A DNA stretch of 64,000 nucleotides, taken from Tsukamurella conjunctivitidis (GTDB taxonomy: Bacteria; Actinomycetota; Actinomycetes; Mycobacteriales; Mycobacteriaceae). The stretch lies in assembly GCF_007858475.1 (NCBI RefSeq), contig NZ_VIGX01000009.1, forward strand, positions 93,002 through 157,001. Reading direction: 5' to 3'. Position 1 is the stretch's first letter. Each line of letters begins with the position of its first letter. Shown in pieces: positions 12,602 to 62,653 of this stretch. The position numbers were made by a program, and so were the translations under genes. A model generated the notes under the pieces. It was given only the letters and a program-made list of their open reading frames with translations. It had not been told where the DNA came from and searched no databases.

Positions 12602-12606
12602 CCGCT
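12602..12606. repeat. Target-site duplication, left copy (CCGCT)
   Basis: CCGCT immediately precedes the transposon end and begins 4 bases after the dnaB stop codon. The identical pentamer follows the other end at 62649. Confidence 0.85.
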
Positions 12607-12690
12607 TGTAGGGTCCCAGATTCCGTGGCGGAATCCCAAGCTACGTGGCGGACAGTTGGCGGATCCGCCAACTGTTTGGGACACGCCGGG
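12607..12690. repeat. Transposon end next to dnaB with TnsB-type repeats
   Basis: After the terminal TGTAGGGTCCC there are three related 9-mers: CGTGGCGGA at 12624-12632 and 12644-12652 (20 bp apart) and GTTGGCGGA at 12655-12663. They look like TnsB binding sites. A 24-bp perfect palindrome centred on GGATCC (12652-12675) overlaps the last ones. The tnsA promoter must lie here, so TnsB binding could repress the operon. Confidence 0.75.
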
Positions 12691-12733
12691 GCACGTCCCC
12701 GCATCTGAGGGCGGAAGTGGCACCGTCAAGACC

Positions 12734-13468
12734 ATGTCGCCCGGCAGCTCCGCGGGGACCGCGGTGGAAGTATCGTTCCGCCGCGGTGAGGACCTCTGTG
12801 AGCGGACCGTGGAGTGGAAGTCGGCCGCAATGGAGGACCTTCGCGAGGCAGCGCCGTGGCGCACATTTCGCTGGTATCGAGGGCAGAAACACTACTCGGG
12901 GTGGTACTGGTCGAGCACTACCCGCGATCTGGTGATCTATGAGTCCCGCCTGGAGCTCGCTAACCTGATGCTCGCAGACTTCGACGATCGGGTTCGGGGC
13001 ATCGTGGCCCAGCCTTTCCTTCTCGCGACTGAGGTCGATGGTGTCCTGCGGAGGCACGTTCCGGACTTCCTACTCGATACTGATTCCGGCCCGGTCGTCG
13101 TTGACGTAAAGCCTGCTCGAAGGCTTGATAATGATGATGTTGCAAGGGTTTTGAACTTGACTCGGGATGTCGTCGAGGCCAAGGGGTGGCGATACGAGGT
13201 CGCCACCGAGCCGCCGCCGCGGAGGGCCGCGAATGTCAGATTCCTCGCTGGCTATCGGCGCGAGAGTGCAATCGTGCCTGACCATTGCGAGGCGGTTCAG
13301 GCGGTCGCTCAGGTGGGATTGACGATTGGTGCTCTCATCGATCGGATGCCAGATCGTCCTGACGCGAGCGTGCGAGCGGCGGTGCTGCACTTGATATGGC
13401 GGCGTCGGCTGCACGTCGACATTGACGCCGCAATCACTAGTCGCACTCAGATTTCGAGGGTCTTGTGA
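12734..13468 (+). CDS. tnsA: TnsA endonuclease of Tn7-like transposon
   Basis: 244 residues from ATG 12734; the frame is open upstream to 12656, inside the terminal repeats, so the later start is preferred. TnsA is the restriction-enzyme-like nuclease that cuts the 5' ends of the element and permits cut-and-paste rather than replicative transposition. The catalytic set is visible: Glu in YESRLE (residue 70 or 74), Asp111 in VPDFL and Lys126 in VDVKP. A C-terminal helical part (about 150-244) should contact TnsC. Its stop overlaps the tnsB GTG. Confidence 0.9.
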   Translation: MSPGSSAGTAVEVSFRRGEDLCERTVEWKSAAMEDLREAAPWRTFRWYRGQKHYSGWYWSSTTRDLVIYESRLELANLMLADFDDRVRGIVAQPFLLATEVDGVLRRHVPDFLLDTDSGPVVVDVKPARRLDNDDVARVLNLTRDVVEAKGWRYEVATEPPPRRAANVRFLAGYRRESAIVPDHCEAVQAVAQVGLTIGALIDRMPDRPDASVRAAVLHLIWRRRLHVDIDAAITSRTQISRVL

Positions 13469-15612
13469 GTGGCGTTGAGCGGGTTGAGGTTGGCGGACGG
13501 TACATGTACGACGGCGAGGCGTTCGAGATCGTGGAGCTCGCCACGGCTAAGGGCGTCGTCGATGTGCTGGGGAAAAGCGCTGCAGGGCAGTACATGCGAG
13601 TTGGCCTCGCGGAGTTGCTGTCTTCGGTCCGGGGTCGGGTCCTCCCGACCGGCCCTGGCGTTTCGAGCACTGATGCAACCGAGCCTGCAGGCGTCATCTT
13701 CGGTGAGTTGTCCGCGGCAGAGCTTCAGAAGGTGACGGAACGCGCGGGGCACGTACGCGAGATTCTTACCGGGTACAGATCTGGCAGCGCGGAGACTGCG
13801 AGCAAGGGGGAGCCCAGGCCGGAGTTTTCCGGCGACCGCCCGCTCACTGACCGCTACGCAGCGAAGGCGCGCGAACTGGGCGTCGGCTTGCGATCTGTGG
13901 AGCGGTGGGTGTCCAAGTTCCGCACTGAAGGGCCCGCAGGCCTGGTAGACGCGCGACGTACGAGAGAGGCGGAGCCCTTCCCGTCTGTCGATCGGCGGTG
14001 GTTAGACACAGCTGTCGAAGTCATGGTTGAGCACGCCACCGAGTCGAAACCGTCCCGCACGATGGTGATGGCACGCGCGGAGGCACGGGTCTTGGCGCGA
14101 TTCGGAGAAGGGGTCGTCGCCATCCCGTCTCGGACAAATGCTTTCCGCGTTCTCGAGTATCTGGAACAGCGCTATCCCACATTTCGACTGTCTGCCAAGC
14201 GAAATCGCGACATCGCTGAGCGGCCAGAAGGCGTGTACGGCAAGCTCCGTCCAACTCGGCCTGGCGAGTACATGCTGATGGACACAACCAGGCTCGATGT
14301 CTTCGGGCTCGATCCTCTGACGCTGCGATGGGTGCAGGTCGAACTGACCGTCGCGATGGACTGGTACACCCGCTGCATCACCGGGTTGCGATTGACCCCG
14401 GTTTCCACGAAATCGGTTGATGTAGCGACCGTGATGTACGAGGTTTTCAGCCCACGTCCGGCCGGCGCGGACTGGCCGGAATACGCGGTGTGGCCAGCTC
14501 ACGGAGTACCGCGGTCGGTACTTGTAGATGTCACCGCGGAGCGGCCAGCGGATGCGGCCGCTGGACCAGCTATTGTCCCTGAGACACTGGTCGTGGACCA
14601 TGGCAAGGTCTACCTCTCGAACCACGTGATGAGTGTGTGCCAGCGCTTCGGGATTTCGGTGCAGCCAGCTCGGCTCCGAACCGGCCGCGACAAAGGGCCA
14701 GTTGAGCGGTTCTTTCGTACTATTCGTGAAGATCTCCTCCAGGCCTTGCCGGGGTACAAGGGACCTGATGTCCACTCGCGCGGCGAGGATCCTGAGGGCG
14801 GAGCGTTCTTCTACATCGACGAGCTCGAAAGCATCATCCGCGAGTGGGTTGCGCAGGTCTACCACCACCGCCAGCATTCGAGCCTGCTCGACCCGCGAGT
14901 TCCGGGCTTACGTATGTCGCCCGCCGCGATGTTCGAGCACGGTGTTTCTCGCGCCGGATACATTGAGGCGCCTCGCGATCCGGACCTGGCATTCGAGTTC
15001 CTCAAGCCGGTATGGCGGAAAATTCTTCACTACGGTGTCGAGATCGGAGGCCGCCGCTACAACGGAGACGGGCTCAACGGCTACCGTAACCTCGCGAGCC
15101 GGTTCACCGGCGAGGCCAAGGGACGATGGCCGATCCACTGCGATCCCGACGACATCACCAAGGTGTACTTCCGGCGCCCAGATGAGCGGACCTGGCACAC
15201 ATTGGTGTGGGAGCACGCACCGTCGATCGATATGCCGTTCAGCGAGGATGCACTGCTCTACGCAAGGAAGCTAGCAGCATCGAAGTACCGATTCCCCAAC
15301 GACCGCCTTGCGGTAGCTGACTTGTTGGAGCGGTGGAACATCGGCCTGGGCTCGACCCGAGTGGAACGGCGCATTGCATTGAGAATGTCACGCGAGACCG
15401 AACTGTCGCAGCGACCGCAGGGCGAAGCGCGTGTGGATCGACTGCCGTCGGTCGCCCGCGTGCTCGCTCCCGACCAGGACGAAAGCGATGTGCAAGCAGA
15501 GGACACCGCGATTGATCGCGGTCTCGACTACGCCGGCGAGGAAGGTGACGACGATCGATTCGACCAGGAAAACATCGATGACTTCTACTCCGACGCGCTG
15601 GAGGACGTATGA
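13465..15612 (+). CDS. tnsB: TnsB, DDE transposase
   Basis: 715 residues from GTG 13465, overlapping tnsA by 4 bp. N-terminal HTH region for end binding (around 120-160), then the RNase H-like core with Asp273 (LMDTTRLD), Asp378 (VVDHGKVY) and Glu414 (VERFFRTIRE), 35 residues between the last two as in other DDE transposases, then a beta-barrel and a long acidic C-terminal tail (about 640-715) that in Tn7 contacts TnsC. It cuts and joins the 3' ends. Confidence 0.95.
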   Translation: MSGVERVEVGGRYMYDGEAFEIVELATAKGVVDVLGKSAAGQYMRVGLAELLSSVRGRVLPTGPGVSSTDATEPAGVIFGELSAAELQKVTERAGHVREILTGYRSGSAETASKGEPRPEFSGDRPLTDRYAAKARELGVGLRSVERWVSKFRTEGPAGLVDARRTREAEPFPSVDRRWLDTAVEVMVEHATESKPSRTMVMARAEARVLARFGEGVVAIPSRTNAFRVLEYLEQRYPTFRLSAKRNRDIAERPEGVYGKLRPTRPGEYMLMDTTRLDVFGLDPLTLRWVQVELTVAMDWYTRCITGLRLTPVSTKSVDVATVMYEVFSPRPAGADWPEYAVWPAHGVPRSVLVDVTAERPADAAAGPAIVPETLVVDHGKVYLSNHVMSVCQRFGISVQPARLRTGRDKGPVERFFRTIREDLLQALPGYKGPDVHSRGEDPEGGAFFYIDELESIIREWVAQVYHHRQHSSLLDPRVPGLRMSPAAMFEHGVSRAGYIEAPRDPDLAFEFLKPVWRKILHYGVEIGGRRYNGDGLNGYRNLASRFTGEAKGRWPIHCDPDDITKVYFRRPDERTWHTLVWEHAPSIDMPFSEDALLYARKLAASKYRFPNDRLAVADLLERWNIGLGSTRVERRIALRMSRETELSQRPQGEARVDRLPSVARVLAPDQDESDVQAEDTAIDRGLDYAGEEGDDDRFDQENIDDFYSDALEDV

Positions 15613-16712
15613 CCGAAACCGCCGCGACACTCGACAATCTGACCCTCGCCCGAAAGGAAGGGTGGCAGAAGTTCGTCAACACCCCCGCACGTGTTCCACC
15701 GGAGGCGTTGAACCGCGATGAACTCGACAGACTGACCGACAAGGAGCGCACCGACTACGACCGTGAGCGCCGCGAGTGGCACGCGAACCTCGGGCCCCTC
15801 AAGACCAGACAGCTGGTCGAGGTGCACGAAAACCTCTGGGATGTCATCGACTCCAACGCCCAGGACGGAGACAAACCGAAAGGCGCCGTTGCGATCGACG
15901 CAGTACCCGGACTAGGGAAGACCACCGCGGTATTGAGCTTCGCCCGCGCGTTCCACCGCCGCGAAGTAGCCGAGAACGGCACTACGACCGAGGAAGGTCA
16001 TGAACGGTGGCCGGTGTGCCGGGTGGGACTGACCGGCAACACTGGCCTACGCGAGTTCAACCGGGCGATGCTCGCGTTCTACGCCCACCCAGGCGGCCGC
16101 CGCGGCAACGCCGCCGACTTCGCCCACCGAGCCCTGGACTGCGTGCTGGCATGCGAAACGAAGATCCTCATCGTCGATGATCTGCACTTCCTGCGGCTGC
16201 AGTCCACCTCCGGTGTCGAGGTCAGCAACCACTTCAAGTACATCGCCAACGAGTTCCCGTTGACGGTGATCTTCGCTGGCGTCGGTTTGGAGGCGCGGGG
16301 ACTGTTCTCCGAGGGCAGTAGTGACCGAGATGCTCTTCTCGCGCAGACCGGCCGGCGTACAACGCGGCTGACAATGGATCCTTTCGGTGTCACCAATGAT
16401 GCTGGGCGCCGGGCATGGCGTCAGACGCTCAAGGCGATCGAGCAGCGGGTGGTTCTGGCCGAAAAGTATCCGGGCATGATCGCCGACGATCTCTCTGACT
16501 ACCTGTATGCCCGGTGTACCGGCCAGATCGGCTCACTGATGACCCTGATCAACCGGGGATGTCAGCGCGCGGTCCGGACTGGGTATGAGCGCCTCGACGA
16601 GGAACTGCTCGATCGGGTCAAGATCGACGAGGCATCGGAGAAGGCTCGCGAAGAACTGCGCCTGGCATTCGACAACGGCTGCCTGAGAACTCGCATCGGC
16701 AGGGCCGGATGA
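15609..16712 (+). CDS. tnsC: TnsC, AAA+ transposition regulator
   Basis: 367 residues from ATG 15609 (ATGA overlap with tnsB). Walker A is VPGLGKTT (about 99-106), Walker B is ILIVDDLHFL (about 184-193). It polymerises on target DNA, links the TniQ target-selector to the TnsAB transposase and gives target immunity. At 367 residues it is shorter than Tn7 TnsC (555), nearer to TniB-type or CAST TnsC. Confidence 0.93.
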   Translation: MTETAATLDNLTLARKEGWQKFVNTPARVPPEALNRDELDRLTDKERTDYDRERREWHANLGPLKTRQLVEVHENLWDVIDSNAQDGDKPKGAVAIDAVPGLGKTTAVLSFARAFHRREVAENGTTTEEGHERWPVCRVGLTGNTGLREFNRAMLAFYAHPGGRRGNAADFAHRALDCVLACETKILIVDDLHFLRLQSTSGVEVSNHFKYIANEFPLTVIFAGVGLEARGLFSEGSSDRDALLAQTGRRTTRLTMDPFGVTNDAGRRAWRQTLKAIEQRVVLAEKYPGMIADDLSDYLYARCTGQIGSLMTLINRGCQRAVRTGYERLDEELLDRVKIDEASEKAREELRLAFDNGCLRTRIGRAG

Positions 16713-19682: not shown

Positions 19683-20840
19683 TTGACCAACGACAGTCGC
19701 GACTCTGATCGCACAACCGATACCACCAGCACTGAACGGGCTGGAGGTGCCCGGCCCATCCAGGTCGGGCAGCACCGGCTCGAGGGCATGTCGACGGACC
19801 TGTTCGTTCAGGTCCCGACGACCTTGATCGACCCGACTCGCGCGCTGATCGCGTCGGAAGGTGTCGGCGCGGTCTACTCCGTGCCGTGGCAGTCCCGGAC
19901 CCACCGCTCCGCGGTGGCGAGGACCGCGGCGGATCAGACCCGCAAGAAGTGCCCCGAAGCAGCGTTGCTGCTCGACGCGAACCTCTACAGCGGCCGGCAG
20001 CGGAAGGTGGCGACGGCGGAGCCGACCCGCGACTGGATCACCGTGCAACGTAGCGCGGGCCTGACGTGGGCATTGACCGATTCCGGCTATGTGGCCAAGG
20101 GCGACACCGCTGGGCTGCGGACCACCCTGAAGACGGCGGCCCGCTTCGGTGGACAGGTGATTGCGGCGCTGCCGATCGCGAGCTGGTGGCTTTCGCACGC
20201 CGCCGATTCGCTCCGGTCTGAGATCAACGCGCACGGCATCCCCGTGGCGTTGATGGTCGAAGACACCGACGACCCGTTCGACCGGACCAACGTCGTGACC
20301 GGGCTGGTGCACGTCCTCACCGCAGATGTCCCGGTGCTGCTCCTGCGCAGTGACACGGCGGGGTTGGGGGCGCTGGCGTACGGCGCCGCAGGCGCGGCGA
20401 TGGGGTCATCGACCACCTACCGGCACATCTACCCCGACATCGGCGGGGGCGGCACCAGCGGGTCGGTGTCGTTCATCCTCCCGGAGCTTCTCGCGTACAC
20501 GTCGCTGACCGCGTTCGAGCGGCATTACCTCAAGGACAAGTCCCACGCCGCGTGGTGCTGCGACTGCGCACTCTGCGGTGGACGGGACCTGACCTGGATC
20601 CGCACGGCTGACATCCCGAAGGCAGCAGCGTTCTCGCATTCGGTCTCCGCGGTCGCGATGCTCGGTCGCGGTTTGGCCACCGCTATCGCCGCCCACAACG
20701 GCCCGCAGGCGTGGACGGCGATGTGCGAGGCCGCCCACGAGAGCAACATCGAGATCGAGAAGCTCACCGGCGGGGACTGGAAGCGCAAACGCGCCCTGTC
20801 CGCCTGGATCGGCGCTACGCCGGAGCCGGCTGCGGCGTGA
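19683..20840 (+). CDS. tRNA-guanine transglycosylase/DpdA-like protein (putative)
   Basis: 385 residues from TTG 19683, chosen because a strong GAGGAGG lies 5 bases upstream; a GTG at 19587 has none. The protein reads like a TIM barrel with an LLLDAN strand near residue 85, an MVEDTDDPFD segment, and a zinc motif C293-x-C295-x2-C298 followed by His319. That CxCxxC...H pattern is the signature of the TGT superfamily, whose members swap guanine for 7-deazaguanines in tRNA, or in DNA (DpdA). Overall similarity is weak, so substrate and reaction are unknown. It converges with the next gene, overlapping it by 26 bp. Confidence 0.5.
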   Translation: MTNDSRDSDRTTDTTSTERAGGARPIQVGQHRLEGMSTDLFVQVPTTLIDPTRALIASEGVGAVYSVPWQSRTHRSAVARTAADQTRKKCPEAALLLDANLYSGRQRKVATAEPTRDWITVQRSAGLTWALTDSGYVAKGDTAGLRTTLKTAARFGGQVIAALPIASWWLSHAADSLRSEINAHGIPVALMVEDTDDPFDRTNVVTGLVHVLTADVPVLLLRSDTAGLGALAYGAAGAAMGSSTTYRHIYPDIGGGGTSGSVSFILPELLAYTSLTAFERHYLKDKSHAAWCCDCALCGGRDLTWIRTADIPKAAAFSHSVSAVAMLGRGLATAIAAHNGPQAWTAMCEAAHESNIEIEKLTGGDWKRKRALSAWIGATPEPAAA

Positions 20841-21438
20841 TCGGCACCCCTGTCGCGAGGGCGTGAGCGAATAGCCGCTCCTCCCAGTACCGCACCGCGA
20901 CGATCCGCGGAGGATCGGCAACCTTCGATCCCCGCACCAGTAGTTCCTCGCCGGCGTGAGAGGTATGCACCACGCTCACGTCGGCGAGGTCCGCCGCCGT
21001 CAAGCTCAGCGCCGTGGGCCGCCGCTCGGTCAGCACCACGGTCTCGCCGAACCCGCGAAGCTCACTGGCGACATACAGGGCCCTCTTCCACTGCCCGGTG
21101 GCGACGAACCCGACGATGCTCAACGGCGCCGCCGGCGGCGCCCCCGCGCCCTCCGCCGGGCACATCTCCCACAGCTCGAGGACCTGCGCGTCGAGCATCG
21201 GTCCCGCCCCGGACGACATCCGTTCGGCGACGGTCGACGACCATCGGACCACCGGATACCCGCGAAGCCCCGACAGTTCGGTCCGCGGCAACACCGACAC
21301 CGAGCTATCGAGGACGAGCTCCGCAGCCGCGACCACGGCCGCGTCGACCAGATCCGCCGGCGCGACGGCAGGGACGTCGAACAGGGGGAGCTGACCCGCC
21401 TCTGCGTGGATTGACCGGGTACGTCGCCGCGCCGTCAC
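20815..21438 (-). CDS. Hypothetical protein coupled to AbrB-like gene
   Basis: 207 residues from GTG 21438, whose first bases overlap the stop of the AbrB-like gene, so the two are translated together. No membrane segment or recognised domain. A central part (SIVGFVATGQWKRALYVASELRGFGETVVLTERRPTA, positions about 105-140) looks like an alpha/beta fold. Because it follows a SpoVT/AbrB regulator it could be the effector half of a toxin-antitoxin-like pair or a partner of the TGT-like protein; neither is shown by the sequence. Confidence 0.6.
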   Translation of the reverse strand: MTARRRTRSIHAEAGQLPLFDVPAVAPADLVDAAVVAAAELVLDSSVSVLPRTELSGLRGYPVVRWSSTVAERMSSGAGPMLDAQVLELWEMCPAEGAGAPPAAPLSIVGFVATGQWKRALYVASELRGFGETVVLTERRPTALSLTAADLADVSVVHTSHAGEELLVRGSKVADPPRIVAVRYWEERLFAHALATGVPITPQPAPA

Positions 21439-21806
21439 TGGTCTTCCTCTCCCACGGGCGCGGGCTCCGGCGCGATGACCCGCGACGCGGCGAACAGATG
21501 AATGCGGTCCTCCAGGGCCAGGAACGCCACGACGCTCCCAATGTCCAGACCGACCGAGTCGAGGACCGCCGCCGGCAGCGCGATCTGTCGCGACGTCCGC
21601 AGCCGCCGCGGACGATCCGGGTTACCTCGTACGGACGGCTTCGTCCCGCGCGGGCCGCGAGTGGGAATGATCTCGACGATCCTCTGGTCGGCGACGACAC
21701 CGATCCGGACCCACGAAGGCTGCCGCACTCCGGATGCCTTCGCCACCTTCGCTGGGATGGTGATCCGGCGGAAGCTGTCGATCGTCCGGGGACCCGTGGG
21801 AAGCAT
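21435..21806 (-). CDS. AbrB/SpoVT-like DNA-binding protein
   Basis: 123 residues from ATG 21806. It appears to contain two swapped-hairpin-like halves: RRITIPAKVAKASGV near residue 15 and RQIALPAAVLDSVGLDIGSVVAFLALEDRIHLF in the second half, the pattern of AbrB/MazE-type barrels. Such proteins are transition-state regulators or antitoxins. Upstream, TAAAAT lies 7 bases before the ATG and no ribosome site is present, suggesting a leaderless mRNA. A 6-bp dyad (21807-21824) overlaps this and is a candidate autoregulatory operator. Confidence 0.65.
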   Translation of the reverse strand: MLPTGPRTIDSFRRITIPAKVAKASGVRQPSWVRIGVVADQRIVEIIPTRGPRGTKPSVRGNPDRPRRLRTSRQIALPAAVLDSVGLDIGSVVAFLALEDRIHLFAASRVIAPEPAPVGEEDQ

Positions 21807-22110: not shown

Positions 22111-22464
22111 CTAGCAGCACGTGGCCAGGACGGCCCGGAGCGCTTCAAGGGAGTCAGGTTCGGCCCGGTAGAAGACGTTGATCCCGCGCCGCTCGGAGCT
22201 GACGAGGCCGGCCTTCTTGAGCTGGCTCAGGTGGTGACTGACGGTCGCCGACGACAGGCCCACCGTGTCGGCGAGGTCGCCGGTGCTGATTTCGCCTGGA
22301 CGTGCGGCCATGAGGATCGAGATCAGCTGGATCCGGGCCGGGTCGGCGAGGGCCTTGAGGCGCAGGGCGAGCTCGAGTGCCGCGGCCTCGTCCATCACGC
22401 CGGCGGCCAGCGGAGCACAGCAGATCGGGGCGCTGATGTCGACGACGGGGAGCGTCTTGGGCAT
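22111..22464 (-). CDS. arsR: ArsR-family metalloregulator (Rv2640c-like)
   Basis: 117 residues from ATG 22464. Winged-helix repressor with recognition helix SSATVSHHLSQLKKAGLV; cysteines ICC near the N terminus and TCC at the C terminus are candidate arsenite/cadmium ligands. It is divergent from the cadI/arsI-like gene, exactly the pairing Rv2640c-Rv2641 of M. tuberculosis. The palindrome at 22486-22499 lies in the shared control region. Confidence 0.88.
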   Translation of the reverse strand: MPKTLPVVDISAPICCAPLAAGVMDEAAALELALRLKALADPARIQLISILMAARPGEISTGDLADTVGLSSATVSHHLSQLKKAGLVSSERRGINVFYRAEPDSLEALRAVLATCC

Positions 22465-22485
22465 ACGCTTCAATCTACCTACTCG

Positions 22486-22499
22486 TTGACATATGTCAA
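22486..22499. promoter_or_regulatory. ArsR operator-like palindrome
   Basis: TTGACATATGTCAA is a perfect 14-bp palindrome between the divergent arsR and cadI/arsI genes. It overlaps a TTGACA-type -35 element, so a bound repressor would block the promoter. Confidence 0.65.
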
Positions 22500-22559
22500 A
22501 GCGTGGTCTAGAACTGAACGAGCAACAGTTAGATGTATGTCGAAGCCTCGGAGGTTCTC

Positions 22560-23021
22560 ATGTCCCGCGTCCAGCTCGCCCTCAATGTCGATGACCTCGA
22601 TCAGTCGATCGCGTTCTACACCAAGCTGTTCGGCACGGGCCCGGCGAAGGTCAAGCCCGGTTACGCCAACTTCGCCGTCGCCGACCCGGCGCTCAAGCTG
22701 GTCCTGCTGGAGAACCCCGGCCAGGGCGGCAGCATCAACCATCTCGGCGTCGAGGTGGACTCCAGCGACAAGGTGCACGCTGAGATCGCCCGCCTCACCG
22801 AGGAGCAGCTGTTCACCGAGGAGGAGATCGGCGCCACCTGTTGCTTCGCCACCCAGGACAAGGTCTGGGTCACCGCCCCCGACGCCGAGCGTTGGGAGGT
22901 CTACACCGTCCTCGCTGACGCCGAGACCTTCGACGGCGGACACACTCCGGCGACGACAGCCGAGGACTCCGAAGCGACGCCGGCCGCGTGCTGCACCCCT
23001 GCGGCGGCGAACTGCTGCTAG
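22560..23021 (+). CDS. cadI: ArsI/CadI-family metal-inducible dioxygenase fold protein
   Basis: 153 residues from ATG 22560 (ribosome site GGAGG). One vicinal-oxygen-chelate domain (about 1-120) with His61 and Glu113 as likely iron ligands and the vicinal pair Cys94-Cys95. ArsI enzymes with this set cleave the carbon-arsenic bond of trivalent methyl- and aryl-arsenicals. M. tuberculosis CadI (Rv2641) is the cadmium-induced relative. A C-terminal tail bearing ACC and NCC adds metal-binding cysteines. Confidence 0.85.
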   Translation: MSRVQLALNVDDLDQSIAFYTKLFGTGPAKVKPGYANFAVADPALKLVLLENPGQGGSINHLGVEVDSSDKVHAEIARLTEEQLFTEEEIGATCCFATQDKVWVTAPDAERWEVYTVLADAETFDGGHTPATTAEDSEATPAACCTPAAANCC

Positions 23022-23032
23022 TCCGCCCTCGA

Positions 23033-23068
23033 TCGATGGCCGTCACCGCTTCGGGTGGCGGCCATCGA
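23033..23068. terminator. Hairpin terminator after cadI
   Basis: TCGATGGCCG at 23033-23042 pairs with CGGCCATCGA at 23059-23068, with CACC/GGTG inside the arms. It lies 12 bp after the stop codon. Confidence 0.7.
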
Positions 23069-23189
23069 CGCGGTTACCAGAGAGCGCTGGCGCGAAACGC
23101 AGTAGCGGGCCGCACTGCGCTGTACCGGCTGGTTCTCGCGGTCGGCGTCCCCCTGGGCGGAGGCTGCGCTGGAGGAGAGGCATCTGCGG

Positions 23190-23645
23190 TTAGGCGCAGT
23201 CGCGTGGGTGGAATCCCTCGATGCGGTCGATCGGGGTAAAGACAGGGCAACCGACTTGGTCGTTTCGGTTGAGGATCACGTTCGATGCCGCCATCACTTC
23301 GCAGGCTGCGAGCCCGCGGCTAGCGGCGAGCAGCATGGAAAGCCCGTAGAACGTTGCTGCCGCCGGCGGGGTGAGCGCGAAGAACGCGAAGAAGACCAGC
23401 GTGTTAGTGGCCATGGCCCACGCGCCTGTGACCCGCAGTGGTGCCGAATCACGACCCCGAAGTACAACCGCGAGGGTGATCGCGGCAGGGACCAGTGCGA
23501 CCGCGATGATGAGGTCGATTGTGGAAGGTCCGATGATGATCCCGGCTCCCACGAAAGCGGCACCGATCACTGTCCGGGCGGCGGTGCCCCATCGGCCGAT
23601 CTCTCTTGTCCTGCGTGCGAGGGGCGATTTCACTGTGTTGGTCAT
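23190..23645 (-). CDS. Small membrane protein of the mer operon
   Basis: 151 residues from ATG 23645, overlapping the merB stop (ATGA). Four hydrophobic segments (about 20-40, 42-62, 70-90, 93-112), then a soluble tail with VGCPVFTP and a final Cys. I do not recognise the family with certainty; by position it could be a mercury uptake protein standing in for MerT, or a membrane sensor. It is the last gene of merA-merB-membrane protein. Confidence 0.6.
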   Translation of the reverse strand: MTNTVKSPLARRTREIGRWGTAARTVIGAAFVGAGIIIGPSTIDLIIAVALVPAAITLAVVLRGRDSAPLRVTGAWAMATNTLVFFAFFALTPPAAATFYGLSMLLAASRGLAACEVMAASNVILNRNDQVGCPVFTPIDRIEGFHPRDCA

Positions 23646-24304
23646 TGGGCGGTTCCTTCGTGCTGATCCGGCGAGCAGCATCCGGCCTGTCGGGCTGTGT
23701 CCGGGCTGATGAGCGCTTGTTCAGCGAGAGCTTTCCCGAGGGCGTGCGCGTGGGTGATGTCGAGGAGTTGGTTGCCGGGATTTTCGCGCGTCCACGTTTG
23801 GGCATCGTGTGGGGAGGCGAAGAAGTGCACTTGGTTGCAGAACGACGTTCGAAGCGAGCTGAGGTCATCGGGGTCGACGAGCGATAGCACTGCGGTGTCG
23901 GGTTCGATGCTGGTCACGGTGTCTGCCGTGACAGAGATTCTGATCGTTTGACCGCTCGCGGGTGAGGTCGACTCGATGGTGGCTGACTGGTTTAGGAGTG
24001 TGGGGAAGATCAGGGTGTCGAGTGCGCACCACGTGAACAGTTCGTGACCTGCGACGGTGAACCGATGCGGGGTCGGACGGAGGGTCAGTCCTTGCCCGAC
24101 TATTTGGTCGCGATCGTCGTATTCGGTGTCGGAAACGGATTGGAGTCGTTCCCGTACATCGGGTTCCGACAGTCCGGCCGCAGCTGCTAAGTCCTCTACG
24201 CTGACGGGGTTTCCCTTGGAGAGGAGCCTGAGTAGGGGAACCAGGACTGCCGGATCGAGGCCGGACCCCTCGGGGGTGATGAGTCGATCGAGTGGATTGG
24301 TCAT
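23642..24304 (-). CDS. merB: Organomercurial lyase MerB
   Basis: 220 residues from ATG 24304. Cleaves the C-Hg bond of methyl- and phenylmercury and hands Hg(II) to MerA. The catalytic triad is present: Cys93 and Asp96 in TWCALDTLIF and Cys156 in SFCNQVHFF, matching C96/D99/C159 of the R831b enzyme. N-terminal winged-helix part as in the family. 38 bp downstream of merA. Confidence 0.95.
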   Translation of the reverse strand: MTNPLDRLITPEGSGLDPAVLVPLLRLLSKGNPVSVEDLAAAAGLSEPDVRERLQSVSDTEYDDRDQIVGQGLTLRPTPHRFTVAGHELFTWCALDTLIFPTLLNQSATIESTSPASGQTIRISVTADTVTSIEPDTAVLSLVDPDDLSSLRTSFCNQVHFFASPHDAQTWTRENPGNQLLDITHAHALGKALAEQALISPDTARQAGCCSPDQHEGTAQ

Positions 24305-24342
24305 TGTCTGGGACTTCGCTTGCGGATCGGTGGAATCAGGAA

Positions 24343-25767
24343 TTAGGAAGCGCAGCAGGAGAGCTGGGCGATGTCGGTGCTGAAGGATTGTGCGGCGATT
24401 TTGATGCCCTCGGCCATGGTCAGGTAGGGCGCCCATGTCCGGGCGACCTGCTCGACGGTCATCCTTGCTTCGAGGATGTAGACCCCAGCGGCGGCGATCT
24501 CGCCGGCACTATTCGCGACCGCCGAAATTCCGAGGACTCGATGACTATCGGAGTCTGCGATGAGCTTGATGAAGCCTCGGGTATCTCGGTCAACTTGGGC
24601 CCGGGGTACGTGAGTGAGCGGAAGAAGCGAGCTCGTGTACCGGATTCCGCTTGCGAGGGCCTGCGTCTCGGTCATACCGACGCTCCCGATTGCCGGACTG
24701 GTGAACATCACGCGCGGCAGGTGCGTGTAGTCCAACGACCGCGGGGTCTGTCCGAACATGTTGTCGGCGACCGTTGTGCCTTGCGCGGCTGCGACATAGA
24801 CGAACTCGGGATGGCCGGTCACATCGCCCGCTGCCCACACACGCGGGTTTGATGTTCTGAGCTGATTCGACACGAGGATCGCGCCGCTGGTGCTCGTGTC
24901 GACTCCAACCGTCTCCAGATTCAAACCTCTAGTATTCGGGGTTCTGCCCGTCGCGACGAGCAGCTTCGCCGCACGGAAGTCGCCTTGTCCACCAGGGCTG
25001 GAGGCGGTCACGACGACCTCACCCGCCTCGGTGTCGACCGAGGTCGCGGTCGCGAGCTGCACTACCTCGATGTGCTCGTCAGCGAGCGCTTCCAGGAGAG
25101 CATCTGCGACGTCAGCATCTTCGGCCGAAGCGATCCTGGACCGCACCAAAACGGTTACCTTCGCCCCCAGTCGCGCGAAGAGTTGCGCCTGCTCGAGCGC
25201 GATGAACCCGCCGCCGATCACTAGGAGTGATTCCGGGACTGCGGTCAACTCCATCGCGGTCGTCGACGTCAGGTAGTCGACCAGATTGAGTCCGGGAATC
25301 GACGGAATCGACGGTTGGGCCCCTGTTGCCACCAAGTACCGTCGAGCAATTATCGTCTCGGTAGTCCCATCGGGAGCTGTGACCACCAGCGATGGCGCTG
25401 CCCGCGTTCCCGCGAACGCGGCCGCACCCTGGACGCGGCGCCAGCCGTACGAGTCCGCAACGGCAACGTACTTCTCTGACCGCATCGACTCTGCCAAGCG
25501 CCGTGTCCCCGCCGCCAGGGCGGCCATATCTACCGGCACGGCGGTCGCACCGACCCCCGGGAACCGGCCAGCATCAGAGACCGTGTGCTGTGCCTGCGCC
25601 GCGGCGATCAACGCCTTCGACGGCACGCAACCGGTATTCACACAGGTGCCGCCGAAAGTGCCTCGCTCGATCATCACCACGGACTTGCCCATGGCTGTTG
25701 CGCGGATCGCCGCCGCCATCGCTGCAGCACCCGAACCAACGATCGCAAGATCAAACTCTTCACTCAT
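24343..25767 (-). CDS. merA: Mercuric reductase MerA
   Basis: 474 residues from ATG 25767. FAD/NAD(P)H disulfide-oxidoreductase fold; redox pair Cys42/Cys47 in GGTCVNTGCVPS and C-terminal mercury-binding pair Cys471-Cys472. It reduces Hg(II) to volatile Hg(0). The N-terminal MerP-like (HMA) domain of Gram-negative MerA is absent, as is common in actinobacteria. First gene of the operon, directly behind the MerR operator. Confidence 0.96.
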   Translation of the reverse strand: MSEEFDLAIVGSGAAAMAAAIRATAMGKSVVMIERGTFGGTCVNTGCVPSKALIAAAQAQHTVSDAGRFPGVGATAVPVDMAALAAGTRRLAESMRSEKYVAVADSYGWRRVQGAAAFAGTRAAPSLVVTAPDGTTETIIARRYLVATGAQPSIPSIPGLNLVDYLTSTTAMELTAVPESLLVIGGGFIALEQAQLFARLGAKVTVLVRSRIASAEDADVADALLEALADEHIEVVQLATATSVDTEAGEVVVTASSPGGQGDFRAAKLLVATGRTPNTRGLNLETVGVDTSTSGAILVSNQLRTSNPRVWAAGDVTGHPEFVYVAAAQGTTVADNMFGQTPRSLDYTHLPRVMFTSPAIGSVGMTETQALASGIRYTSSLLPLTHVPRAQVDRDTRGFIKLIADSDSHRVLGISAVANSAGEIAAAGVYILEARMTVEQVARTWAPYLTMAEGIKIAAQSFSTDIAQLSCCAS

Positions 25768-25780
25768 GTCACCATCATCA

Positions 25781-25805
25781 ACCCTCCAGTACCCTTGAAG
25801 GTCAA
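25781..25805 (-). promoter_or_regulatory. mer operator-promoter
   Basis: ACCCTCCAG-TACC-CTTGAAGGT (25781-25802) is an imperfect 22-bp dyad between divergent merR and merA. On the minus strand TTGACC at 25805-25800 is a -35 element with an overlong, about 19-bp spacer to a weak -10, the layout MerR untwists to activate. Confidence 0.8.
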
Positions 25806-25832
25806 GCCCAGAATCCGGACAGGGAGGACCCG

Positions 25833-26222
25833 ATGCGGATCGGAGAACTCGCCCGCAAATCTGGCGCCACGCCATCGACGCTGCGGTACTACGAGGAAGC
25901 GGGGCTCCTCCCTGAACCGGGACGTACCGCCGGTGGATACCGCAACTACACCCCCGACGCCATCGGCATCGTGCAATTCATCAAGAGGGGGCAGGCGGCG
26001 GCACTCACTCTCGCGCAAGTCAAAAGAATCATCGACATACGCGGCACCGGCCAAGCCCCATGTGATCACGTACGCGACCAGCTAGACAGGTCGATCCACC
26101 ACCTCGATCAACAGATCGCGGAACTGATCGCACTGCGCGACAACATCACCCACCTACGCCAAGCTGCCGAACACACCGATCCGAAGTCGTGCGCTAGCGA
26201 AGATATCTGTCGCTACCTATAA
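25833..26222 (+). CDS. merR: MerR mercury-responsive activator
   Basis: 129 residues from ATG 25833. N-terminal HTH (MRIGELARKSGATPSTLRYYE), dimer helix, and three cysteines, C77, C120 and C126, at positions equivalent to the Hg(II) ligands of Tn501 MerR. Divergent from merA with the operator between. Confidence 0.93.
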   Translation: MRIGELARKSGATPSTLRYYEEAGLLPEPGRTAGGYRNYTPDAIGIVQFIKRGQAAALTLAQVKRIIDIRGTGQAPCDHVRDQLDRSIHHLDQQIAELIALRDNITHLRQAAEHTDPKSCASEDICRYL

Positions 26223-26268: not shown

Positions 26269-26643
26269 GTGTCGAATTCGATTCCGTTGACCGATGTGAC
26301 CGTGCGGTGCTCACCGCTGGTCCGTGAGCCTCTGTCGGAGGGGCAGTCCGTCGACCTCGCGGCGGTGTTCAAGGCCCTGGCCGACCCGGTCCGGCTGCGC
26401 CTGTTCAGCCTGATCGCCAGCCACGAGGGAGGCGAGGCTTGCGTGTGTGACATCTCGCCGGCGGTGGACGTCTCGCAACCGACGATCTCGCACCACCTCA
26501 AGGTCCTCAAGACCGCAGGCCTGCTCGAGTCCGAGCGCCGCGCCTCGTGGGTGTACTACCGCGTCATCCCCGAAGTCCTGTCCTCGCTCGCCGGGATCCT
26601 GCAGTCCGGTGACCCCGCCATCTCGTTGGAGGTTCTTTCGTGA
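26269..26643 (+). CDS. arsR: ArsR arsenite-responsive repressor
   Basis: 124 residues from GTG 26269. Winged helix with the ACVCDI motif in the alpha-3 region, the As(III) site of classical ArsR (ELCVCDL type), and recognition helix SQPTISHHLKVLKTAGLL. Starts the operon arsR-acr3-arsC-arsC-reductase-arsN; its stop overlaps the acr3 GTG. Equivalent to Rv2642. Confidence 0.92.
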   Translation: MSNSIPLTDVTVRCSPLVREPLSEGQSVDLAAVFKALADPVRLRLFSLIASHEGGEACVCDISPAVDVSQPTISHHLKVLKTAGLLESERRASWVYYRVIPEVLSSLAGILQSGDPAISLEVLS

Positions 26644-27755
26644 CCAGCCCCGCCCCGACGACTGAGCATCAGCCGGTCGTCGGCAAGCTCTCCACCCTCG
26701 ACCGGTTCCTGCCGGTGTGGATCGGTGTCGCCATGGTCGCCGGCCTGCTGCTCGGCCGGATGATCCCCGGGCTGAACACCGCGCTGGAGAAGATCCAGGT
26801 CGACGGTGTCTCGCTGCCGATCGCCCTGGGCCTGTTGATCATGATGTACCCGGTGCTGGCGAAGGTCCGCTACGACCGCCTCGACACCGTCACCGGCGAC
26901 CGCAAGCTCCTGCTCGGCTCCCTCTTCCTGAACTGGATCCTGGGCCCGGCGCTGATGTTCGCACTCGCCTGGATCTTCCTGCCCGACCTGCCCGAGTACC
27001 GCACCGGCCTAATCATCGTCGGCCTCGCCCGGTGCATCGCCATGGTGATCATCTGGAACGACCTCGCCTGCGGCGACCGCGAAGCCGCAGCCGTCCTCGT
27101 GGCGCTGAACTCGGTGTTCCAGGTGATCATGTTCGCCGTCCTCGGCTGGTTCTACCTCTCGATCCTGCCCGGCTGGCTCGGCCTCGAACAGACCACCATC
27201 AGCACCTCGCCCTGGCAGATCGCCAAATCCGTGCTGATCTTCCTCGGCATCCCGCTCCTCGCCGGCTACCTCTCCCGCCGAATCGGAGAGAAGACCAAGG
27301 GCCGCGACTGGTACGAAACGAAGTTCCTCCCCCGGATCGGACCATGTGCCCTCTACGGGCTGCTGTTCACCATCGTCATCCTGTTCGCCCTGCAGGGCGA
27401 GCAGATCACCTCCCGCCCGTGGGACGTCGCCCGTATCGCCCTGCCGCTGCTGGTGTACTTCGCCGTGATGTGGGGCGGCGGGTACCTGCTCGGCGCCGTC
27501 ATGGGACTCGGCTACGAGCGCACCACCACGCTCGCGTTTACCGCCGCCGGCAACAACTTCGAGCTCGCCATCGCCGTCGCGATCGCCACCTACGGCGCCA
27601 CCTCCGGCCAAGCCCTCGCGGGCGTCGTCGGGCCGCTCATCGAGGTCCCCGTCCTGGTCGGCCTGGTCTATGTCTCGCTGGCCCTGCGCAAGCGCTTCCC
27701 GCTGACCCCGTCCTCCACCGCCGCGACCGCGGATCCGTCCAGGAGTGTGAACTGA
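26640..27755 (+). CDS. acr3: Acr3 arsenite efflux permease
   Basis: 371 residues from GTG 26640 (4-bp overlap with arsR). Ten-helix Acr3/BASS-fold exporter with the essential Cys132 ([14 protein letters not shown]) and Glu308 ([15 protein letters not shown]). It pumps As(III) out using the proton gradient. In M. tuberculosis Rv2643 the arsC domain is fused to it; here arsC is separate, starting on the last base of the stop codon. Confidence 0.95.
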
Positions 27756-28198
27756 TGTCCGACAATACGATCACCGCCGACACCGAATCGGCCACGCCGA
27801 GCGTGTTGTTCGTGTGCGTGAAGAACGGCGGCAAGTCCCAGATGGCCGCCGGCCTGATGCGCAAGACCGTCGGCGATGCCGTCGAGGTGCACTCGGCCGG
27901 CACCAAGCCCGGCTCCGTGGTCAACGGCCTGTCCGCCGAGTCGCTGGCTGAGGTCGGTGTCGACATCACCGGCGAGACCCCGAAACCGATCGACCCGGCG
28001 CTGCTCGCCCGGGTGGACCTGGTGGTCACTCTCGGCCGGGAAGCCGTCGTCGACACCCCGGACGGTGTCGCGTTGGTCAACTGGGATACCGACGAGCCGT
28101 CGGAGCGGGGCATCGACGGGATCGAGCGGATGCGCCTCGTGCGCGACGACATCGCCGCCCGCGTCACCGCGCTGGCAGCCGAACTCACCACCCGGTAG
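27755..28198 (+). CDS. arsC: Arsenate reductase, mycothiol-transferase type
   Basis: 147 residues from ATG 27755 (TGATG overlap with acr3). Low-molecular-weight-phosphatase fold. The P loop reads C21-VKNGG-K-S: a Lys stands where ordinary members (CX5R) have Arg. My recollection is that corynebacterial arsenate-mycothiol transferases share this GGKS loop, which would assign it to that type. It would join arsenate to mycothiol for reduction to As(III). Confidence 0.85.
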
Positions 28199-28241
28199 CG
28201 ACCGAGCAGGCCGGGAAGCCCGAGAAGCGGGAGAAAGTCGG

Positions 28242-28907: not shown

Positions 28908-29012
28908 CCCACCCCTTTGATCGACGTGCTCGACGGCCCCGCTCACCGCCGTCAGTGCCGCTGTGCCTGCTCACACCTCATTTGCCTGTTCTTGGAAGGG
29001 AACCGACACCCC

Positions 29013-42175: not shown

Positions 42176-42249
42176 TGACCGCAAGGGTTGCTCGGGATCG
42201 GCCGCGCGACCACCGCTCCGGCGCACTCGCCGCGACAGGAGGGCCTAGA

Positions 42250-42303
42250 CATACCCGCCTGGGGTATGTTAAGCATGATTTGGAGATACCCACAGGGGGT
42301 ATC
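42250..42303. promoter_or_regulatory. csoR box: Two CsoR-type operators, copZ-copA side
   Basis: CATACCC-N5-GGGTATG at 42250-42268 and GATACCC-N5-GGGTATC at 42285-42303 are perfect repeats, the second ending 22 bp before copZ. Confidence 0.88.
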
Positions 42304-42324
42304 TGAACTGGGTAGGAGAAGGCG

Positions 42325-42725: not shown

Positions 42726-42785
42726 CGCAATGAAGCAGCGCGGGCCACAGGCCTGGCGATAGACCGCAAGTACGGATCGAGGAAA

Positions 42786-46457: not shown

Positions 46458-47596
46458 ACGACGGTCAGCGGGTTGCGGACGTTGGTGGTGCGGGACCAGC
46501 GGGTGACCACGGTCCTGGCTGGGTCGGCGATGGTGATCGGCGCCAACGGTGGTGCGAGCGTCGGGTCGATGTTGTTGGCGTGGCAGTAGGCGTCGCTGTA
46601 GACGGTTCCGTAGTAGCGCTGGGGGCCGTCGGGGAAGATCGCAGCAACGACCGTGTCCGGCGAGCGGGTGCCGGCGATCCACCCGGCGACCTGGGCTACC
46701 GCACCGACGCTCCAGCCGCCGGTCGCGTAGTGCGTCGATGCCAAGGTCCGGCACGCCCACACCGACTCCTCGGGCGCGACCCAGTGCACTTCCGAGAACG
46801 CCGAGTAGTCGACGTTCTCCGGATAGATGCTCGAGCCAAGGCCACGCATGAGTCGCTTGTGCGCGGGCTGGCCGAAGATCGTCGATCCGATGGTGTCGAC
46901 TCCGACGAGTTGCAGGTCCGGCAGGAACTGCCGCAGGGTGCGGCTGACCCCGGCCGAGTGTCCGCCGGTGCCGACCGAGCAGACGAGCACATCGATGTGC
47001 CCGAGCTGGGTCAGCAGCTCGAGGGCCAGCGGCTGATAGGCGCTGACGTTGTCCGGGTTGGTGTACTGGTCCGGGCACCACGCGGTCGGGTCCGCAGCCA
47101 GGTGCTCACAGACCCGGTCGCGTCGGGCTTGCTGCCATCCGCCCGCCGGATGAGGTTCCGTCACCAGGTCGACCTCGGCGCCGTAGGCGGCGAGCATCTG
47201 CGTCAGGATCGGCTCCAGCCCCGGGTCGGTCACCAGCGTCACCGGATGATCGTGCACGATGCCCGCGAGCGCCAGGCCGAGCCCGAGCGTGCCGCTGGTC
47301 GACTCCACGATCCGTGCGCCCGTCGTGAGATCCCCCCGTGCCTTGGCCCGTTCGATCATGTGCAGGGCAGGGCGGTCCTTCATGCCGCCGGGATTGAACC
47401 CCTCGAGTTTGGCCCAGAACCCGTGCCCGGCCGGCGCGAACGGTTCGGCGATCCGCATCACCGGAGTGTTGCCGACCAGGGCCGCCGGGCGCTCCGAGAC
47501 AGGTCCGATGTCGAGGAGCGACCGGGCGGGCAACGGCGGGTGCAGCAATGACAGTGGGGGGCGAGAATCAGGAACCGTGGTCACTTCGGTGCTCAC
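46454..47596 (-). CDS. PLP-dependent cysteine synthase/desulfhydrase family (Cds1-like)
   Basis: 380 residues from GTG 47596 with AAAGGA upstream. Fold type II PLP enzyme: PLP lysine in [11 protein letters not shown], phosphate loop [12 protein letters not shown], and ESTSGTLG substrate loop. It resembles mycobacterial Cds1 (Rv3684), a cysteine desulfhydrase releasing H2S, more than the CysK/CysM biosynthetic enzymes. In a metal island, H2S or thiol supply could trap soft metals as sulfides; this is inference. Confidence 0.8.
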
Positions 47597-47881
47597 GTGC
47601 TGGGGTCCTTTCGGAAGCGGAAAAGGGCGGCACAGGTGTGTGGCACGCCACCCGGCGCGACGGTCTTGCAGGACCAGGACGGTCAGCGTGAGTCGGCAGA
47701 TGGCGTGCCCGTGGCCCGCCGGGTGAAGACGTGCCACCGGTGATCAGTCCGGTGAGGGGTATCTGATCGCCCTCGACTGTGCGTGCCCTAACCAGGCCGT
47801 TACGTGTGCTCAAGATCAAGATTTGCTCAAGAACCGCGCCTCGGGTCGATCCTGGGCATACGGTCAGGCCACGATGGAGGC
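47597..47881. promoter_or_regulatory. Divergent control region with TGCTCAAGA repeat
   Basis: Between the PLP-enzyme gene and the response regulator. A 9-bp direct repeat TGCTCAAGA occurs at 47807-47815 and 47824-47832, 17 bp apart, about 60 bp before the regulator start: a candidate autoregulatory site for an OmpR-type regulator. Confidence 0.45.
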
Positions 47882-60965: not shown

Positions 60966-62456
60966 GTGGTGAATCAGCATCGATGGGCGTCTGGAATGCA
61001 GCGGGCGGCGGCGGTGACGATCGTGGCTGCGATCGTGGTCGGCGGAGCGGATCCTGCGTGGGCGCGGCACGTGGGAGACGACCCTCGAGCAGGTCACTCG
61101 GTCGCGGTGGTTCCTTCGTTGATCGTGCGCCTTGCGGACTTTGATCAGCAGATCGCGGCTTTGCAGAACGACGTTGACATTCGGCGGCAGTCGGTGAACA
61201 AGGCGGTGATCGACGTGGCGTTGGCCGCCGACGCTGCGCGGGCCGCGACGAATGCAGTAGTAGTTGCGGATCGGGAGGCCGTGGCTTCCGACCAGGCAGT
61301 GGATGCTGCTCAGCGCAGGCTCGATGAGATGCTCCGCGCCGCCTACATGCAGGGGAACACCTCGGGCGGGGTCGCGGATGCTCTGACCGCCCCGGATGGG
61401 CAGACGGCGGTAGACCGCACTGCGGTTCTTCGGCGCGTTGCTGCCGCCCAGGCAGGTACTGTCACCGGCCTCAATGACGCCCGGCGGCGGGCGCGATCGA
61501 GCCGCGATGCTGCGCGGATCGCGAAGATCTCCGCGGATGCAGCGGCTGGCGCGGCTGCCGACCGCCGCACCCGAGCGCAGGGGTCGGTGGCCCAGACCCT
61601 GGAGGCGCTGCGTTCGGCGACCGATCAACGCCGACGGTTGGATTTGCGTCGGCAGACGGCCGCAAGGGCGCTCGCCGAGGCGAAGGCGAAGTCCGGGGAT
61701 GCCGCAGGTCAGCAGCGGATCTATGACCAATACGTCGTCAGCGAACAGCAGACAGTGACGGTGCCTTCCTCGCAGCCGGCTCCTGCACCGGCGGCACCCC
61801 CGAACGCAAGCACACCCGTAGCGGCTCCTTCTGCGGCACCGGCAGTGTCGGCGCCCGGGGGGCCACCGTCGGCCGCGACCGCAGCGTCGTCGTTGCTCGG
61901 GCAACTGAGCAACCTGTTCGGGTTCACGCCGCAACCGCAGACCGCATCCCAGGTCCCGGCTCAAGCGGCAGCCCAGGTGCCTGCAATCCAGGCACCAGTA
62001 GCGCCTGTGTCAGTCGCGTCGATGTCGGGCAAGCAAATGATTGACACGGTCATTGCCCGGGGCCTGTCGGTGGTCGGCACCAGATATTCCTGGGGGGGTG
62101 GTGATATCAACGGCCCCACCGTCGGGGTCCGCGACGGCGGCGTTGCCGATACCTTCCGTGACTTCGAGAACCCGGGATTTGATTGCTCGGGCCTGACGCT
62201 GTTCGCATTTGCTGCCGTCGGCATCAAGCTCCCGCACTACAGCGGCTACCAGTACAACATCGGCAAGAAGGTTCCGCTCGCTGAGATCAAGCGGGGTGAC
62301 CTGATCTTCTTCGGCCCGAATGCGAGCCAGCACGAAGCGCTCTATCTGGGTGACAACCAGATGCTTGAGGCACCCGAGTCCGGATCGACGGTCAAAGTAT
62401 CGCCGCTGCGCACCGACGGCGCGATGCCCTACGTGGTCCGGCTGATCAATTCGTAG
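60966..62456 (+). CDS. RipA-like NlpC/P60 peptidoglycan endopeptidase
   Basis: 496 residues from GTG 60966 (AAGGAGA upstream; a second GTG follows). Signal peptide, a long coiled coil (about 45-265) that in RipA covers the active site, a Pro/Ala linker (about 270-360), then NlpC/P60 with C407 (FDCSGL) and H456. Cuts D-Glu-DAP bonds at septa. Last gene in the transposon, 192 bp from its end. A TTGCGT...CAATAT promoter-like pair with 18-bp spacing is seen about 90 bp upstream. Confidence 0.9.
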   Translation: MVNQHRWASGMQRAAAVTIVAAIVVGGADPAWARHVGDDPRAGHSVAVVPSLIVRLADFDQQIAALQNDVDIRRQSVNKAVIDVALAADAARAATNAVVVADREAVASDQAVDAAQRRLDEMLRAAYMQGNTSGGVADALTAPDGQTAVDRTAVLRRVAAAQAGTVTGLNDARRRARSSRDAARIAKISADAAAGAAADRRTRAQGSVAQTLEALRSATDQRRRLDLRRQTAARALAEAKAKSGDAAGQQRIYDQYVVSEQQTVTVPSSQPAPAPAAPPNASTPVAAPSAAPAVSAPGGPPSAATAASSLLGQLSNLFGFTPQPQTASQVPAQAAAQVPAIQAPVAPVSVASMSGKQMIDTVIARGLSVVGTRYSWGGGDINGPTVGVRDGGVADTFRDFENPGFDCSGLTLFAFAAVGIKLPHYSGYQYNIGKKVPLAEIKRGDLIFFGPNASQHEALYLGDNQMLEAPESGSTVKVSPLRTDGAMPYVVRLINS

Positions 62457-62547
62457 ACCCAGTTCTAGTTACGACCTGTCGAAGGCTGTGGGAACGGTAC
62501 TGCTGCTGGAGTGGGAGTCCGGCGACGGCCTGAATGCTGTGGTGGAA

Positions 62548-62648
62548 ATGCCATGTTGCTGGGACTGGCGAGATGCCAACTCCGTGGGACTGCGTGATGC
62601 AGTGCAGGTGAGAAGGCTGACAGTCGCCAGGTAGGTCGGGACCCTACA
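62548..62648. repeat. Distal transposon end with TnsB-type repeats
   Basis: Terminal 11 bp (62638-62648) are the reverse complement of the dnaB-side end. Read inward, TGGC-bearing 9-mers CCTGGCGAC (62631-62623), GTTGGCATC (62580-62572) and ACATGGCAT (62556-62548) resemble the repeats of the other end. Confidence 0.75.
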
Positions 62649-62653
62649 CCGCT
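62649..62653. repeat. Target-site duplication, right copy (CCGCT)
   Basis: Identical to 12602-12606. Its last T is also the first base of a further TGTAGGGTCCCA. Confidence 0.85.

Follow-up and report, generated by a model that had tools for sequence, protein, structure and literature searches.

The ends of Tn7 read TGT...ACA, and the Tn5053/Tn402 family consists of TniA-TniB-TniQ elements that lack TnsA. In the account of Tn7 given in PMC2918618, the TnsD site extends from +23 to +58, and the element inserts about 25 bp from it. The main text of a survey of Tn7-like elements (Benler et al. 2021; PMC8649781) puts the median lengths at 14-29 kb and the longest at 140 kb, describes heavy-metal cargo as common, and states that no member of its Actinobacteria-dominated clade has been experimentally characterized. 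Here we describe a Tn7-like element of 50,042 bp that occupies positions 12607-62648 of a 64,000-nucleotide window from Tsukamurella conjunctivitidis (contig NZ_VIGX01000009.1, positions 93,002 to 157,001; positions below are those of the window). This element is very probably a cut-and-paste transposon that homes to the replicative helicase gene dnaB, carries mercury, arsenic, cadmium, copper and envelope genes as cargo, and has recently moved between Tsukamurella species. A preliminary description of the window considered Tn7-like elements of this size to be little described in mycolic-acid actinomycetes; by the lengths in the survey's main text, 50 kb is large, not new.

The element begins with the 11-bp end TGTAGGGTCCC (12607-12617, plus strand) and finishes with its inverse (62638-62648), and CCGCT flanks it on both sides, which agrees to the base with the preliminary description. 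The ends have the form TGT...ACA, with arrays of TnsB sites predicted from sequence patterns. As had also been expected, the end repeats are not scattered over unrelated places: the exact 11-mer has three copies in the 5.07-Mb genome, every one at this locus.

We compared 16 Tsukamurella genomes, including the source genome (G000), T. sputi HKU70 (G013), T. pseudospumae (G005), T. asaccharolytica HKU71 (G001), sp. 1534 (G007), and sp. PLM1 (G009). Nine of them have close relatives of TnsB, and a tenth (G003) has short weak matches only. A nearly identical element is present in seven genomes (G000, G001, G004, G006, G007, G013, and G015). Its exact ends are paired at a spacing of 47-53 kb in G001, G004, G006, G007, and G015, and the copy in G013 is divided between two contigs. 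Identity was measured in 1-kb tiles, and tiles with more than 800 aligned bases were counted (of 51 tiles, 50 for G013, 49 for G015, 50 each for G001 and G004, 46 for G007, and 42 for G006; the 51st tile is the remaining 42 bases and is not alignable). Inside the element, the copies in G013 and G015 are both 99.97% identical to the window's (9 mismatches in 49.9 kb and 9 in 49.0 kb), followed by G001 (99.95%, 13 mismatches in 50.0 kb), G004 (99.9%), G007 (99.1%), and G006 (97.2%). Outside the element, the preceding 2.9-4.0 kb are 85.1-92.5% identical in five genomes; the outer flank of G001 was not measurable because dnaB and this element are on different contigs. A 50-kb unit of multi-metal resistance has moved between species, and three of its copies differ from the window's by no more than 9-13 substitutions. 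The copy in G007 lacks the mercury module, and the copy in G006 is a mosaic of near-identical tiles and tiles of 86-96% identity, with 32607-36606 unmatched, so modules of the cargo are exchanged.

Six of the seven copies lie directly behind dnaB, and the flanking 5-mers agree in five of these six. The perfect duplications are all different (CCGCT in the window, then CCCGG, CCCTC, CCTGC, and TGTTG); the flanks in G004 disagree (CCCGT/CCTAC), without a duplication. If we count G005, G009, an inner element in G001, and a remnant in G012, then an element end lies behind dnaB in 10 of the 16 genomes; in G002, G003, G008, G010, G011, and G014 there is no element end within 90 bases behind dnaB. The copies with their own flanks and the species without the element bear out the proposal that the metal and envelope genes form a single Tn7-like unit of 50,042 bp. 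The comparison with relatives that had been suggested thus turned out as anticipated, except that the string forecast for the empty site (CCGCT-GTAGGG) is found in no relative. G002 looks like the unoccupied site with a small deletion: beginning 99 bp past the dnaB stop, its DNA aligns with the sequence to the right of the G004 and G006 copies, at a distance of about 640 bp and more from them (81% identity over 866 bp and 80% over 851 bp), and a short stretch closer in also aligns (51 and 48 bp). This flank starts about 2.1-2.2 kb behind dnaB in G008 and G003. In G012 (G012:C34; L211:536-2784), dnaB is interrupted by a segment the size of an intein, and all that we found behind the gene was an element end with a tnsA fragment. 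The source genome also contains a second DnaB-like gene (G000:C221:578026-579240; 31% identity).

We also scanned 84,980 species genomes with a pattern-based search built on four aligned TnsB sequences; it turned up 105 relatives, of which we analyzed the best 80. Judged by record titles, their hosts are actinobacteria throughout. At 38 of the 80 loci, the dnaB stop is followed at 0-20 bp by an element end (TGTAGG or TGTAGA), always in the same orientation, with tnsA at most 600 bp away in 30 cases and farther in 8. The DNA examined for another 35 yielded no dnaB, and seven were excluded (six because their upstream DNA was short, and one that is the stacked copy in G001). Where there was no dnaB end upstream, dnaB was not matched in either orientation. 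At 34 of the 38 dnaB-site loci, rplI and mostly also rpsR and ssb are upstream of dnaB, which is chromosome-like; three others are at contig edges, and L171 has none of these genes in 4.4 kb. At L171 (5765-5790), the insertion is within the last codons of dnaB, and the TAG of the transposon end TGTAG is the dnaB stop.

The distance from the ATG of the DMA codons of dnaB to the element end has a median of 24 bp (range 13-30) and is 22-26 bp at 40 of the 45 junctions that were measurable, out of 46 (two genomes are listed twice, and without them the count is 38 of 43; six rows are the same transposon). At the remaining junction (L104), CTC replaces ATG, and the distance is 25 bp by eye. Targeting of dnaB clusters on the TniQ tree, where it takes 6 changes, versus 10 on the TnsB tree. 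For 14 relatives that are not at dnaB, we sought the adjoining gene among the open reading frames and saw no common target (the adjoining genes were not put through a family search). A pentapeptide-repeat gene was considered as a universal neighbor of dnaB and rejected, as its homologue in the source genome is on another contig. These results support site-specific homing to the 3' end of dnaB in a widespread actinobacterial family, which the preliminary description had not noticed, and they name a conserved attachment site, the end of an essential helicase gene, for elements that range from Tsukamurella and Mycobacterium to Streptomyces. Although this kind of element is already known, we did not find the dnaB site, its reach, or the plasmid variant (see below) in print; in the openly licensed literature, supplementary tables aside, we found no paper that names dnaB as a Tn7 attachment site.

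The genes tnsA, tnsB, tnsC, and tniQ lie in this order at the dnaB end, and Pfam, NCBIfam, and PDB matches uphold their original identification. Pfam scores for TnsA, TniB/TnsC, and TniQ are above the cut-offs; in TnsB, a helix-turn-helix is above the cut-off and the integrase core (rve) is below it. The TnsA endonuclease and the TnsB transposase are encoded by separate genes. Our start for tnsA is taken from the annotated T. tyrosinosolvens copy, and the reading frame is open from 12656. In TnsB, D273, D378, and E414 are invariant in the alignment of four sequences, and we take them to be the catalytic triad. TnsC contains A-x4-GKT, which was spotted by eye and does not match the strict pattern G-x4-GK[ST]. 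The predicted structure of TniQ (predicted local distance difference test score, 87.5) has a TniQ domain, helix-turn-helix repeats, and a C-terminal LysR-type winged helix, and it matches the folds of TniQ/TnsD and LysR domains; residues 364-775 are scarcely covered in a VIA-align fold search. TnsE (PF18623) was not found in any of the 16 Tsukamurella genomes, in a search that lacked a positive control. Among the open reading frames of the window that were scanned, there were no Cas families, and clustered regularly interspaced short palindromic repeat (CRISPR) arrays were not searched for. In several copies, tnsB is split or interrupted by an IS21-like insertion (NZ_LR134456.1, G001, G009, and G015), so not every copy looks autonomous at present.

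We propose that TnsA and TnsB would excise the element at its TGTAGGGTCCC ends, that TnsC would act as a bridge, and that the long, TnsD-like TniQ would bind the DNA that encodes the conserved C-terminus of DnaB (here, HQLHYSRFVDMA). Insertion would follow mostly 22-26 bp downstream of the ATG of the DMA codons, in one orientation, with the tns genes beside dnaB and a 5-bp duplication, and dnaB would stay intact. New arrivals would wedge between dnaB and older elements.

Could the 50 kb have spread by homologous recombination of the dnaB region, with the ends as fossils? The dnaB flanks are conserved enough for this (89-96% identity over 499 bp), the G004 copy has no duplication, and some of the tnsB genes are broken. 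But identity falls from nearly 100% to the species level right at the element ends, every copy is set off from dnaB by a short spacer of its own (and has its own duplication in five of six cases), and the G001 copy lies beyond another element, so recombination is already disfavored and we consider it very unlikely. The idea of an ordinary metal island, inherited vertically and bearing repeats by chance, can be regarded as refuted. The ends are indeed short, and approximate matches to them are common: a scan with a 12-mer and up to two mismatches gave 6 matches, as compared to a mean of 3.0 in shuffled sequences, and 8 of 100 shuffles gave 6 or more, so the ends are not rare on their own. We nevertheless exclude a chance origin because the same ends are 47-53 kb apart in five other genomes and because identity jumps at base 12607. 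Exact ends are found at this locus only, six of the 16 genomes have no element behind dnaB, and copies in different species are nearly identical.

A different doubt concerns what chooses the target. The choice might be made by a factor from the cargo or by some structure at dnaB, with TniQ as a generic hub, as in TnsF elements. Relatives that are not at dnaB do have the same tnsABC-tniQ layout, and some, with a TniQ of 40-43% identity, are elsewhere on plasmids. However, the proteins encoded immediately after tniQ show no conservation across the 80 loci, the TniQ tree fits dnaB targeting more tightly than the TnsB tree does, and TniQ is long with a C-terminus that is predicted to bind DNA, which together make another selector improbable. 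Our preferred reading, that TniQ selects dnaB, is one that we infer, and so we do for the protein roles, the order of stacking, and the passage between cells.

The third copy of the end 11-mer (62653-62663) abuts the right end from the outside and shares the T of CCGCT with it. The preliminary description did not list this copy, yet it is inside the empty site that was forecast there. It is probably the end of an older dnaB-site element, and if so the site before insertion already held end-like sequence: it reads ACC-CCGC-TGTAGGGTCCCAATT, and the duplication of the 50-kb element takes in the first T of the older end. The remnant beyond it is similar to the inner element of G001 (70% over 404 bp) and to DNA of G009 that is 28.6 kb behind dnaB (77% over 236 bp; the far end of the G009 element was not found). 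In G001, dnaB is followed first by a different element (TnsB 67%), then by TCGT and the 50-kb element, and the inner element's duplication, TCGTT, likewise uses the first T of the outer element. (This order spans a contig break, which we bridged via two parts of one tniQ.) In both the window and G001, the newest element seems to be the nearest to dnaB.

Across 59 extracted element ends, the layout of the predicted TnsB boxes is similar by eye, and the repeated word varies among elements (for example, TTCATA, GTCGGA, and TGTCC). A script detected an inverted arm in 31 of the 59, and in a few the arm differs from the repeated word. In these ends and in the window (12614-12681), the word of 6-7 bp is element-specific: it is repeated within an end and differs among related elements. 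Such words may prevent cross-reaction between stacked elements.

On two plasmids, an element end lies at the corresponding spot behind a plasmid-borne dnaB, 7 bp from its stop in Mycolicibacterium alvei pJCM12272 and 6 bp in M. aubagnense unnamed4. In the stretches examined, no ribosomal genes adjoin dnaB on either plasmid, and the dnaB-side tniQ is split or interrupted in both. We inspected nine plasmid stretches with this transposon family, and the other seven have no dnaB in the DNA examined (in one of them, L198, the tns end is outside the stretch). DNA similar to dnaB of pJCM12272 is found in 125 plasmid records, some of which are non-actinobacterial and one of which is a mislabelled Tsukamurella record. 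No element end lies in the 40 bases behind the plasmid dnaB genes of pFRP1-1, pBCI2-2, pCBMA213_1, and NBC_01218. We rejected 'plasmid 14' of T. tyrosinosolvens NCTC13231 (NZ_LR134456.1; L194, L218) as a plasmid copy: the element there is behind rpsF-ssb-rpsR-dnaB, and because the record carries these genes we read it as a mislabelled chromosomal contig.

Given the two plasmid-borne sites, one selector might serve both chromosome and plasmid. Since actinobacteria carry dnaB on the chromosome and many of their plasmids carry it too, a single dnaB-reading TniQ might provide both safe chromosomal homing and plasmid boarding; we hold this idea tentatively and with some doubt. If true, one TniQ would replace the two pathways (TnsD with TnsE, or TnsD with CRISPR) of other Tn7-like elements. 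The finding also opens to testing the question of how mobile DNA is reached by Tn7-like elements that have a single TniQ. A pattern scan of viral_contigs for relatives matched 59 stretches, none of which was confirmed, and phage records contain distant relatives only (7 records, all below 60% identity). Three Mycobacterium abscessus prophage records (MW584169, MW584180, and MW584158) encode a TnsB relative with 30-32% identity over 84-88% of the protein.

Coordinates of all features are collected in the table. The proteins that we tested from the region behind tniQ are not conserved across the family. A 417-amino-acid open reading frame there was rejected as a conserved second selector: beyond three near-identical Tsukamurella loci, it has one weak match (25%) among the 80. 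The CadD-type cadmium transporter is above the Pfam cut-off, and its NCBIfam match is below. The 3' limit of the window coincides with the end of the contig, which terminates in a repeat of about 126 bp (63875-64000) that has many copies in the genus, several of them at contig edges; it is probably the end of an insertion sequence.

Table. Features of the dnaB locus, with positions in the 64,000-nucleotide window
Feature	Positions	Strand	Basis
dnaB, replicative DNA helicase; 3' end is the attachment site	11174..12598	+	Pfam DnaB_C 5e-101; preceded by ssb, rpsR, rplI reading frames
Target-site duplication CCGCT, dnaB side	12602..12606		Sequence
tns-proximal end, begins TGTAGGGTCCC; 3 direct and 1 inverted predicted TnsB boxes, word TGGCGGA	12607..12681	+	Pattern-based
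tnsA	12734..13468	+	Pfam TnsA 5.5e-7; NCBIfam TnsA_like_Actin 6e-70; annotation
tnsB, DDE transposase	13465..15612	+	PDB TnsB sequence match 3.8e-18; Pfam helix-turn-helix above cut-off
tnsC, AAA+ regulator	15609..16712	+	Pfam TniB 4.6e-8; PDB TnsC 6.7e-6
tniQ, putative TnsD-like target selector, 864 amino acids	16709..19303	+	Pfam TniQ 5e-19; structure model; fold matches
Hypothetical genes and AbrB/MazE-type gene adjoining tniQ	19683..21746		No Pfam match for reading frames scanned; T. tyrosinosolvens annotation
Mercury module: ArsR-like regulator, ArsI/CadI, then merB, merA (-), merR (+)	22111..26222		Family searches, annotation
Arsenic module: ArsR, ACR3 efflux, two low-molecular-weight phosphatase/arsenate-reductase-like genes, flavin adenine dinucleotide oxidoreductase, GNAT	26269..30958	+	Family searches, annotation
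P-type cation ATPase and ArsR/SmtB (-); methyltransferase, cyclase-domain protein, CadD-type cadmium transporter (+)	32598..37117		Family searches
Major facilitator superfamily (MFS) transporter, CsoR-type regulator, copper P-type ATPase	39178..45062		Family searches
MFS transporter and pyridoxal-phosphate-dependent cysteine-synthase-like enzyme	45153..47737	-	Family searches
Copper and envelope module: two-component system, multicopper oxidase, TlpA/CcdA, Lnt, L,D-transpeptidase, Lgt, M48/BlaI pair, NlpC/P60	47804..62456		Family searches
Distal end, 3 predicted TnsB boxes, terminates in GGGACCCTACA	62547..62648	-	Pattern-based
Target-site duplication CCGCT, distal side	62649..62653		Sequence
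Probable remnant of older dnaB-site element, begins TGTAGGGTCCCA	62653..63071	+	DNA similarity to other dnaB-site elements

Among known systems, the element resembles Tn7 in having TnsA, TnsB, TnsC, and a long TniQ/TnsD, a 5-bp duplication, and orientation-specific insertion downstream of an essential gene, as well as TnsB boxes that number four at one end and three at the other (as in the main text of PMC8649781). Its insertion mostly 22-26 bp from a conserved codon is like that of TnsD-guided Tn7 behind glmS. It differs from Tn7 in that the target is dnaB, not glmS, and in its LysR-type TniQ C-terminus, its metal cargo, and its actinobacterial host. The presence of TnsA places it outside the Tn5053/Tn402 family. 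Tn7706 of Rhodococcus erythropolis (PMC12915292) also has tnsA, tnsB, tniB/tnsC, and tniQ in an actinomycete, but it is 19.4 kb long and multicopy, on several plasmids and contigs, and the main text of that paper does not mention dnaB. The Actinobacteria-dominated clade of Benler et al. 2021 (PMC8649781) shares the host phylum and the subterminal arrays of TnsB sites, although dnaB has no occurrence in the main text; the dnaB-site family apparently belongs to this clade, which is described there as experimentally uncharacterized. With TnsA and TnsB, TnsC, a TniQ selector domain, TGT...ACA ends, a 5-bp duplication, and oriented insertion at a fixed distance, we classify the element as Tn7-like.
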